A stretch of DNA of 37,728 nucleotides from Candidatus Woesearchaeota archaeon. GTDB lineage: Archaea > Nanobdellota > Nanobdellia > Woesearchaeales > SM23-78. The notes beneath the pieces are model-generated. The model was given only the letters and a program-made list of their open reading frames with translations. It was not told the origin of the DNA and did not search any database. The stretch spans positions 1 through 37,728 of the forward strand of contig JAFGDD010000027.1 of NCBI GenBank assembly GCA_016932315.1, read 5' to 3'. Positions 3,291-6,136 of this stretch are shown piece by piece (the stretch's first letter is position 1; every line of letters starts with the position of its first letter). Made by a program: the position numbers and the translations under genes.

Positions 3291-3324
3291 AATTTTTTAA
3301 ACAATACTTTATTCTGGTTTGCAC

Positions 3325-4479
3325 ATGAAGACCTTAAAGGATTTCAATTTCAATGATAAGCGCGTTCTAATGAGAGCAGACCTGGATGTTCCTATTGATG
3401 AGAAGACTGGCGAGATTACTGATGATTTTAGGCTTAGGCTGGCTGTGCCGACTATTAAGCACATCCTAAAGAAGGGTGTTAAGCAGCTCATCATTATGGG
3501 TCACATGGATAGTCCTGAGGGCAAGGTGGTTGATAATTTGAAGATGGACAAGGTGGCTGCCAAGCTTATGCTACTTCTGGGTAAGAATGTTTATAAGACT
3601 AGTGATTGCGTTGACATCAATCTTTCTTCCTTGGCTACTGAGAAGATTATATTGCTGGAGAACTTAAGGTTTCATGCAGAGGAGGAGAAGAATGATGATG
3701 AGTTTGCAAAAAAGCTTGCAAGCTATGCTGATGTCTATGTTAATAATGCATTTGCTACTTGCCATCGCGCTCATGCGAGTATGCACGCTATCACAAAGTA
3801 TTTGCCTGGCTGCATTGGGTTGCAGGTTGAGAAGGAGGTTGAGAACCTGGATATTAGCAAGATGCAAAAGCCTATTGTTGCAATCCTGGGTGGTGCTAAG
3901 CTTAAGACTAAGATTCCTATGATCCAGAAGATGCTGGTGCAGGCTGATTCTGTGCTGCTTGCTGGTGCCATGATTTTTACTTTCTACTCTGCTAATGGCT
4001 TGGAGATTGGCAATAGCTTGTGCGACAATGATTACATAACTAATGCCAAGATGATGCTTAATAATGAAAAATTAATACTGCCTAAAGACATAGTCATTGC
4101 TAATGCCAGCCTTGAAACCGGCATCATGACTGTTCCTTATGACAAGATTCCAAAGGGCGTTTTGGGCTTGGATATAGGCGAGCAAAGCATTGAGCAGTTC
4201 AAGTCAGAACTCAGGGGCGCTGTAACAGTAATATGGAATGGCCCTCTTGGTTATTGTGAGAAAAAGCCTTTTGACAAGGCGACTGCAGAGATAGCGAGGT
4301 TCATGGGCGAGCTTAAGTGCCACAAGATTGCTGGTGGCGGGGACACTGCTGACATCATCCACAAGCTTGGCTATGATAAGAACTTTACTTTTATCAGTTC
4401 TGGCGGGGGGGCTTCTCTCGAGTTGTTGTCAGGCAAGGGTTTGGTTGCTTTGCAGGCTCTTGAGGAGAATGGCAAGTGA
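3325..4479 (+). CDS. pgk: Phosphoglycerate kinase
   Basis: This enzyme interconverts 1,3-bisphosphoglycerate plus ADP with 3-phosphoglycerate plus ATP. Visible landmarks are RVLMRADLDVP at the N-terminus, LENLRFHAEEE, the substrate-site segment VNNAFATCHRAHASM, GGAKLKTKIPM, WNGPLGYCE, and the nucleotide-binding IAGGGDTADII and SSGGGASLELLSG near the end. At about 385 residues it has normal PGK length. The usual HLGRP motif reads HMDSP, so a substrate-binding arginine is missing at that point. An upstream TTG (3319) is possible, but ATG 3325 lies 24 nt after the TATA-like TTTTTTAAAC and fits a leaderless start. It belongs with gap and tpiA. Confidence 0.95.
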   Translation: MKTLKDFNFNDKRVLMRADLDVPIDEKTGEITDDFRLRLAVPTIKHILKKGVKQLIIMGHMDSPEGKVVDNLKMDKVAAKLMLLLGKNVYKTSDCVDINLSSLATEKIILLENLRFHAEEEKNDDEFAKKLASYADVYVNNAFATCHRAHASMHAITKYLPGCIGLQVEKEVENLDISKMQKPIVAILGGAKLKTKIPMIQKMLVQADSVLLAGAMIFTFYSANGLEIGNSLCDNDYITNAKMMLNNEKLILPKDIVIANASLETGIMTVPYDKIPKGVLGLDIGEQSIEQFKSELRGAVTVIWNGPLGYCEKKPFDKATAEIARFMGELKCHKIAGGGDTADIIHKLGYDKNFTFISSGGGASLELLSGKGLVALQALEENGK

Positions 4480-4564
4480 TTAAAGGTTAATCTACCGAAA
4501 TTTTTTTAAATACCACCCGCTTACCTGTGTATTCATCTAGAAGTAGTCAAAAATAGTGGTTTTT

Positions 4565-5842
4565 ATGAATAGTAATTTTCTAGAGAAGCAAATTAAGGAC
4601 ATAGAAGAAGAAGGGCTCTATGATTTAGCTAGTGAACCCTCTAATAATAAATATAAGACCGGATTAAAACCCATACATGAGAAAGGCAACATCAAAGAAA
4701 ACTCATTCTATTTCCTGAAAAAAACAGCAGGTATCAAACTACTGTCAAAAGAAGAAGAGCTTGAGATAGGAAAGAAGCTGGTTGAAAACAAGCAAAAAAT
4801 ATTCAAGGCGTTAATAACCAATAATAAAACAACGCTCTACTATGTTTGTGAAGAGCTAAGAGACACAATCCAAAGAGAAAAATTTGATGAAGAGAAAGGA
4901 AGGATTTCATACATGCCGCCAGATGAGAGCAAAGCATTCCAGAAAGCATTCACCCAGCTGGAAAAGAACAAAGACTACATTAACCTGACCAGGCTTTTAA
5001 GAGAAGCAGATTTCTCATCGCAATTCTACGACAAGATGATAAAGTATAGTATAGAAAAGCTTCCAAGATTAAAGCAAAGAAAAGATTTAGCATCAATAAT
5101 ATCATTAGTTGAAGCTGACAAGGAGAAACTGATTAATCACAACCTTAGGAGCATCAGGCAGGTCTATTTCATGAAAGGATATTGGAGAATTCCTAATGTT
5201 GAAGCAGATGACCTCATGCAAGAAGGTTATCTCGGCTTGCGCAATGCAGCAGACAAATATGATTACAGGGTAGGAGGAAAGTTCATGACCATGGCAGTGT
5301 GGTGGGTAGACCAGGCTATGAGGCGAGAAATTAGCAACAACAGCAGAACCATACGCCTACCTGTCCACATTGGACAGCAAATAAGCAGCTATTTCAGAAC
5401 CAAGGTAGAACTCGCCAAGAAATTAAGCAGAGTGCCTACAGAGAAGGAGCTGGCTGAGCAGATGAACCTGAGCATTGAACAGGTAAAAAACATAACTGAA
5501 GCTGCAAAAGAGCCTATATCCACCTCTGTCCAACTGGGAGAGGATTATACAATAGAAGACATCCTATCAAAAGATGATAAGAAGAATGTCAGCATGGAGG
5601 AAAACAAAGCCACGATAGAAATGGCATTTGAAAAAGTGATAAGAGCCCTTAAGGATTCAGAATCAGTCCCAGAAAGAGAATACAAGGTTCTTGAACAAAG
5701 ATATCTGAAAGGAAAAACATTGCAGGAAGTCGGAGATTATTTAAAATTATCAAGGGAAAGAGTGAGGCAGATAGAAGCAAAATCCCTGAGAAAGGCAAGA
5801 CTGGTACTATTAAAAAAAGGATTCACGATTTCTAAATATTAA
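4565..5842 (+). CDS. Bacterial-type sigma-70 family sigma factor
   Basis: All core sigma regions are present in order, numbered from the upstream in-frame GTG (4556). Region 1.2 (about 51-85) contains KLLSKEEELEIGKKL. Sigma2 (about 190-262) contains DDLMQEGYLGL, YDYRVGGKFMTMAVWW and region 2.4 WWVDQAMRREI. Region 3.0 is RTIRLPVH (264-271), followed by sigma3 with PTEKELAEQMNLS. Sigma4 ends in the HTH LQEVGDYLKLSRERVRQIEA (389-408). The melting aromatics and the -10-recognition helix look intact, so this is not a TFB or a relic. Region 1.1 is absent. Residues 100-185 form a non-conserved region before sigma2.1. Archaeal polymerase uses TBP/TFB, so the role of this protein is unclear. It converges on rpoK. 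The start may be GTG 4556; no strong SD is seen. Confidence 0.93.
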   Translation: MNSNFLEKQIKDIEEEGLYDLASEPSNNKYKTGLKPIHEKGNIKENSFYFLKKTAGIKLLSKEEELEIGKKLVENKQKIFKALITNNKTTLYYVCEELRDTIQREKFDEEKGRISYMPPDESKAFQKAFTQLEKNKDYINLTRLLREADFSSQFYDKMIKYSIEKLPRLKQRKDLASIISLVEADKEKLINHNLRSIRQVYFMKGYWRIPNVEADDLMQEGYLGLRNAADKYDYRVGGKFMTMAVWWVDQAMRREISNNSRTIRLPVHIGQQISSYFRTKVELAKKLSRVPTEKELAEQMNLSIEQVKNITEAAKEPISTSVQLGEDYTIEDILSKDDKKNVSMEENKATIEMAFEKVIRALKDSESVPEREYKVLEQRYLKGKTLQEVGDYLKLSRERVRQIEAKSLRKARLVLLKKGFTISKY

Positions 5843-5905
5843 CAAAATAATTGAGCAATAAAAAATAATTTTATAATAAGAATTTTTATCTCTATTTATT
5901 TCTCG

Positions 5906-6136
5906 TTATCTCTCGTGAGGCTGCAGCCTCTTCACAGTTATAGGCAGAACACCTGCTTCCAGCTCAAGCTTAGCTATCTCAACAGGGTTGTAGCTTATCT
6001 CCTCGAGTTGCTTAGGCGTGAGCTTGATGAGAAAAGGAGCTCCCATGCTTATCTGCAATGCTCTTGAGCCTATTAGTCTTGCCTTTTCGTACTTGGTGAA
6101 CTCTTCATCTTTCAAGGGTTCAATGTCAACAGTCAT
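5906..6136 (-). CDS. rpoK: DNA-directed RNA polymerase subunit K (Rpb6/omega homolog)
   Basis: RpoK is the small RNA polymerase subunit that helps assemble and stabilise the large subunits. The family core is clear: TKYEKARLIGSRALQISMGAP, then PVEIAKLELEAGVLPITVKR. At 76 residues it is normal for archaea. ATG 6136 lies 2 nt after the rrp42 stop with AAGGAGG inside the end of rrp42, so the two are translated as a coupled pair; a TTG two codons earlier is less likely. It is the last gene of the exosome operon, and the sigma factor gene converges on it with a 63-bp gap. Confidence 0.94.
   Translation of the reverse strand: MTVDIEPLKDEEFTKYEKARLIGSRALQISMGAPFLIKLTPKQLEEISYNPVEIAKLELEAGVLPITVKRLQPHER

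Follow-up and report, generated by a model that had tools for sequence, protein, structure and literature searches.

An RpoD-type sigma-70 gene in a variable pgk-rpoK interval of a Woesearchaeota genome

The sigma gene and its archaeal surroundings

The window analyzed here is the whole stretch of 37,728 nucleotides from Candidatus Woesearchaeota archaeon (assembly GCA_016932315.1, contig JAFGDD010000027.1, positions 1 to 37,728 of the forward strand). Between the genes for phosphoglycerate kinase and RNA polymerase subunit K it carries a gene for a 425 aa protein of the sigma-70 family. The features of this part of the window are:

3319..4479, + strand: pgk, phosphoglycerate kinase, the left edge of the variable interval (PF00162, E-value: 6.9e-121)
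4495..4512, + strand: archaeal BRE/TATA-like promoter element CCGAAATTTTTTTAAATA upstream of the sigma gene (from the sequence, consensus match judged by eye)
4565..5842, + strand: sigma-70 gene, RpoD-type, 425 aa, ATG start (Pfam regions 2, 3 and 4, PDB sequence match and fold match)
4706..4790, + strand: putative region 1.2-like segment, residues ~48-75 (weak SigA alignment, confident model helices, no Pfam region 1.2 match)
5165..5350, + strand: sigma region 2, for clamp contact, -10 recognition and melting (PF04542 above cut-off, residue mapping against E. coli RpoD)
5387..5575, + strand: sigma region 3, residues 275-337 (PF04539)
5663..5794, + strand: sigma region 4, residues 367-410, with an intact -35 recognition helix, RERVRQIE (PF04545, 6/6 of the -35 residues)
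5906..6136, - strand: rpoK (Rpo6, omega homolog), the right edge of the interval and the end of the exosome cluster (PF01192, NCBIfam RNA polymerase subunit K)

The sigma reading frame is open to bp 5842 from the ATG at bp 4565 or from an in-frame GTG upstream at bp 4556. Its product matches the Pfam families Sigma70_r2 (E-value: 3.5e-9, 36.8 bits, cut-off 24), Sigma70_r3 (E-value: 1.4e-12, 48 bits, cut-off 25.3) and Sigma70_r4 (E-value: 2.3e-16, 59.5 bits, cut-off 24.1), and the closest solved structures by sequence are SigA/RpoD chains (E-value: 1e-38). Region 1.1 is absent. Region 1.2 aligns weakly with SigA at residues 39-74, and because the window protein has no Pfam region 1.2 match at an E-value of 0.001, this segment is assigned provisionally. 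An AlphaFold model built from 20 homologs has a mean pLDDT of 73, and most of the core of regions 2 and 4 exceeds 85; the model matches the sigma chains of bacterial RNA polymerase holoenzymes and open complexes (best E-value: 2.0e-13). Together, the open reading frame, the matches to regions 2-4 and this fold match bear out the preliminary description: the archaeon carries a true sigma-70 gene of bacterial type. Core RNA polymerase binding and promoter-specific initiation remain putative activities, predicted from the sequence.

Comparison with RpoD/SigA (groups 1 and 2) shows likeness in regions 2-4 (up to 39% identity), fold and recognition helix; the window sigma differs in having no region 1.1, a weak region 1.2 and an archaeal host without a bacterial core RNA polymerase. 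The RpoD equivalog cut-offs are not reached (TIGR02393, 162.6 against 354 bits; PRK05658, 166.6 against 555 bits). The top NCBIfam match by score is MzaA, the sigma factor of the MZA anti-phage system (171.8 bits); this identity was rejected, as the score lies far below the 800-bit cut-off and the gene is flanked by pgk, rpoK and the exosome cluster rather than by mza genes. The sigma gene is the only sigma-70 copy in the genome (1.34 Mb, 91% complete), and its GC content (0.38) is near the average of the contigs (~0.41).

The surroundings are archaeal, as had been claimed: neighboring genes encode the exosome proteins Rrp4, Rrp41 and Rrp42 and SBDS (Pfam, NCBIfam), and the genome encodes TFB, TBP and one archaeal Rpo1N. 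The 8-mers TTTATAAA and TTTATATA rank highest among 606 upstream regions of the genome, and TATA-type motifs, its dominant upstream signal, peak ~30 nt before the start codon. This spacing is as expected of leaderless archaeal transcripts. At bp 1515-2510 of the window lies a GAPDH gene of bacterial/eukaryotic type I (TIGR01534 above cut-off), not of archaeal type II. GC-rich palindromic elements (e.g. C8:4048 and C9:62507) are dispersed between genes of this genome (G000); their cores, GGCGACTT and GCAACCCC, have ~67 matches each, a few of them inside genes.

Variable cargo between pgk and rpoK, and the distribution of archaeal sigma genes

The sigma gene and rpoK, the archaeal omega homolog, are indeed convergent, and the preliminary description had treated this neighborhood as meaningful. 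Comparison with congeneric genomes speaks against that view. While rpoK adjoins rrp42 in 7/7 of these genomes and pgk faces rpoK across the interval in G001-G005, the sequence between them (bp 4480-5905 of the window and loci L033, L197, L198, L199, L200 and L201) holds different cargo in each species. G005 carries an NgoPII restriction-modification set with Vsr, a sigma gene and a bPH_2 protein gene; the others encode an Ala-racemase-N protein (G001), a tautomerase (G002), Fic and an Ala-racemase-like protein (G003) or DUF2284 and an unknown protein (G004), and G006 has no pgk near rpoK. The sigma genes of G002 and G004 lie on other contigs, outside the interval, and no sigma gene was detected in G001, G003 or G006. 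With cargo varying over six congeneric genomes, a functional link between rpoK and sigma was rejected and the adjacency is incidental. A conserved operon partner or defense linkage was likewise rejected: no recurrent neighbor family, such as an anti-sigma factor, was found, since every Pfam family occurs three times at most among 136 sigma-gene neighbors, and PADLOC gave the same outcome.

Sigma-70 homologs were found in 25/59 related genomes and sigma-70 genes in 124 of the 371 genomes sampled across the phylum, the closed or near-closed genomes G016, G090 and G025 among them. The gene thus has many counterparts among relatives. A chimeric join is improbable, since a sigma gene occupies this interval also in G005, a separate genome of the same genus. 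Contamination is made unlikely by the same observation, by the matches in closed or near-closed genomes and by the lack of a second, bacterial-type beta-prime in the 58 genomes, of the 59, that gave a match (two genomes have Rpo1N in two pieces). Most sigma copies are intact ORFs of 250-1000 aa; broken or truncated copies occur in G020 and G039.

The occurrence of sigma-70 in these archaea is known, since Castelle et al. 2021 (PMC8204110) report a sigma-70 family (fam00359) in DPANN that is prevalent in Woesearchaeota. They exclude mis-binning and found no anti-sigma factor. A review (PMC6126073) credits Rinke et al. (2013) with the first archaeal sigma factors. The preliminary description was right about such earlier reports without an assigned role, and our literature search found no function reported for archaeal sigma factors. 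The window sigma belongs to the same phenomenon as fam00359; the present analysis adds tests of synteny, polymerase side and promoter side to what is described there. New here are the variable interval, the two-sided residue comparison and the promoter test.

Almost all archaeal sigmas resemble bacterial RpoD about as closely as they resemble each other, and often more closely. A single origin was not upheld, as the trees give no one archaeal clade, though most of their branches are unsupported; they imply 8-12 label changes, at least three of them forced by supported branches. The window, G005 and G004 sigmas group together with weak support. Repeated transfer of sigma genes into these archaea is likely from these sequence comparisons, and its number is not fixed, since support is weak at most forks and long branches (including that of the window sigma) come together. 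Between the window and G005, flanking proteins are mostly 67-89% identical and the sigmas 28-34%. No sigma pair was close enough for dN/dS estimation, synonymous sites being saturated.

Many archaeal sigmas bear N-terminal extensions of 250-600 aa without a Pfam family (L034, L035, L037, L041, L044, L057, L059 and L215). Large unknown ORFs lie beside some of these (L035:11380-13731 and L037:11582-13702), and the ORF beside another (L041:11405-13066) has a sub-threshold HTH_17 match. Two viral contigs carry two tandem sigma genes of ~290 aa each (L308:4848-6710 and L326:4929-6765), whose products the tree places with compact archaeal sigmas.

From the evidence on gene, interval and relatives, we regard it as almost certain that the locus holds a functional-looking sigma-70 of RpoD type and ultimately bacterial origin, an accessory and fast-evolving gene in a variable pgk-rpoK interval of a DPANN-type archaeon.

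Contact residues, the host polymerase and promoter sequences

Residues of the window sigma were mapped onto E. coli RpoD, using positions that we take to be those contacting the clamp, the -10 element and the -35 element. Among the clamp contacts 4/7 are as in E. coli (R385, D403, Q406 and E407 are kept; L402D, N409Y and M413R are changes). The -10 recognition and melting set of regions 2.3/2.4 retains 6/10 (F427, T429, W433, W434, Q437 and R441), with R423V, Y425G, Y430M and T440R as the changes. The -35 set of region 4.2 is identical at all six positions. N409Y and Y430M are the notable losses. The initial claim that regions 1.2 to 4.2 were present, with intact promoter-recognition and melting motifs, therefore holds for regions 2, 3 and 4 and for the -35 set, and is slightly overstated with respect to the -10 and clamp substitutions and the weak region 1.2.

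Across the archaeal sigmas, residues are widely kept at clamp positions (D403 in 29/33, Q406 in 22/33, E407 in 27/33), at -10 positions (Y430 in 28/33, W434 in 26/33, Q437 in 25/33) and at -35 positions (R584 in 26/30, E585 in 25/30, R586 in 29/31, Q589 in 27/31). The comparison set consisted of divergent phage and bacterial sigmas whose overall identity is similar (0.39, against 0.35 for the archaeal set). Per-column conservation in the two sets is closely correlated (r = 0.92), and no special loss was seen at the clamp (0.58 archaeal, 0.65 phage/bacterial) or -35 contacts (0.86 and 0.88). In four congeneric sigmas the contact residues are more conserved than the remainder (Fisher p 0.0001-0.007). 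Judged by these alignments, clamp, -10 and -35 residues are kept in archaeal sigmas about as in divergent phage sigmas, and part of this constraint may stem from bacterial or phage donors. Phage sigma-70 proteins (from IMG/VR, gut phages and cyanophages) share the domains of the archaeal copies, and some group with them; they differ in that they presumably meet a bacterial RNA polymerase, whereas the window gene lies in an ordinary archaeal chromosome region.

The clamp coiled coil was compared among 43 genomes, 25 with and 18 without sigma. It is nearly invariant, of ordinary archaeal type, and alike in the two groups. The residues corresponding to R275, E295 and A302 of E. coli beta-prime, sites at which mutation presumably reduces sigma binding, are I, L and H almost throughout the archaeal genomes compared; N276, R278, L279 and Q300 of the bacterial clamp surface are shared. 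Because I, L and H are common to both groups, there is no sign of clamp co-adaptation, and a co-adapted clamp was rejected. The beta flap-tip helix, which holds sigma region 4, is absent from Rpo2 in an alignment of one genome, with an unrelated segment in its place. At the level of sequence, the host's own polymerase shows no adaptation to sigma. The clamp coiled coil is a shared docking site, for TFE and Spt4/5 in archaea and for sigma and NusG in bacteria (PMC3382729), and weak or competitive docking may therefore occur.

The scan for TTGACA/TATAAT-type promoters suggested in the preliminary description gave neither an enrichment of TTGACA in genome upstream regions (17 seen, 20.5 expected) nor an excess of -35/-10 pairs at spacers of 16-18 nt, at any threshold. 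The genome was scanned as stretches, with 72 kb masked. In a positive control of 103 Lactobacillus upstream regions the excess was modest, with 17 pairs against 9 at spacers of 16-17 nt (8-bit threshold) and 3 against 0.6 at 17 nt and 10 bits. Since the power of this control is modest, the scan argues more strongly against a broad regulon than against a small one; genome-wide sigma-70 promoters were not seen, and the scan would miss a regulon limited to a few genes.

Possible roles of the sigma factor

The window sigma is probably not a general initiation factor, because the clamp lacks the tested residues, the flap tip is absent and sigma-70 promoters are not outstanding. General recruitment of the archaeal polymerase, one of the roles proposed at the outset, is disfavored on the same grounds. 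On parsimony we lean, tentatively and with somewhat less than even confidence, toward a narrow alternative promoter factor or a competitor acting on the cell's own polymerase. Regions 2 and 4 would still bind -35/-10 type sequence, region 2.2 would touch the polymerase clamp, docking on the coiled coil at the TFE and Spt4/5 site would be weak or non-canonical, and the protein would act at few genes, with a small regulon. The domains and fold, the conserved contacts with their phage-like column conservation, the partly shared clamp surface at a common docking site, the archaeal machinery with its dominant TATA signal, the lack of a recurrent neighbor family and the occupation of the same interval in G005 support such a role; the I/L/H clamp, the absent flap tip and the lack of any TTGACA or spacing excess weaken it. 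The asymmetry between sigma and host polymerase is best explained if the protein instead acts inside an attached bacterium, entering its cytoplasm and redirecting or sequestering the core enzyme there. The own polymerase does not match at the tested sites, the residues of region 2.2 and of the -10 and -35 sets are preserved much like those of phage sigmas that presumably use bacterial RNA polymerase, and the copies are of RpoD type, often nearer to bacterial RpoD than to one another. Cultivated DPANN hosts are, to our knowledge, archaea, which counts against a bacterial partner; neither a secretion signal nor a delivery system was found, and residue conservation may in part be inherited from bacterial or phage donors. 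Some Woesearchaeota have been suggested to be bacterial episymbionts, and SLT lytic transglycosylases have been linked to possible bacterial hosts, both by Castelle et al. (PMC8204110). The genome does encode an SLT domain protein (G000:C28:41627-42079), a bacterial cell-wall hydrolase type matched in 35/59 genomes searched, this one included, but SLT occurs in 16/25 genomes with sigma and 19/34 without (Fisher p 0.60), and it was discarded as a marker of a bacterial host. Hijacking of a bacterial polymerase, as first proposed, is compatible with the residue pattern, but the SLT correlate is negative, and we consider action on a bacterial partner unlikely. More doubtful still is the stronger claim that the sigma is an inter-domain effector, one that captures or reprograms the RNA polymerase of a bacterial partner after entering it. 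We know of no earlier archaeal inter-domain sigma effector, and this would be the first case, if true.

A free sigma might also dispense with polymerase altogether, binding -35/-10-like sequences as a stand-alone regulator to repress or mark TATA-rich promoters. Conservation is highest in region 4.2 (0.86 identity to RpoD at the -35 residues), region 1.1 is absent and several relatives have the long N-terminal extensions, one beside the HTH_17-like protein. Against this, the clamp residues are kept in parallel (their archaeal to phage/bacterial ratio is that of all columns), as are the -10 melting residues, although a protein that only binds DNA could do without these; such a regulator seems improbable to us. 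Finally, bacterial or phage sigma genes might arrive repeatedly and then decay without acquiring a stable role. Patchy occurrence within genus and phylum, the label changes on the trees, the broken copies in G020 and G039 and the low identity of the window and G005 sigmas next to well-conserved flanking genes fit such transience. Most copies are nevertheless intact, with contact residues kept despite deep divergence, copies also occur in the closed or near-closed genomes, and the sigma in the same interval of G005 suggests persistence within the genus, so that we hold transience alone to be quite improbable. A narrow role on the host's own polymerase is the reading that we tentatively prefer.

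Reports of archaeal sigma factors go back to about 2013 and assign them no function. As the sigma side keeps many bacterial contacts and the own polymerase shows no matching adaptation, the question of their role becomes directly testable: the archaeal polymerase accommodates sigma in a manner not yet described, a foreign polymerase is targeted, or the protein works free of polymerase. Action on either the own or a foreign polymerase, if true, would change views of the domain boundary in transcription.
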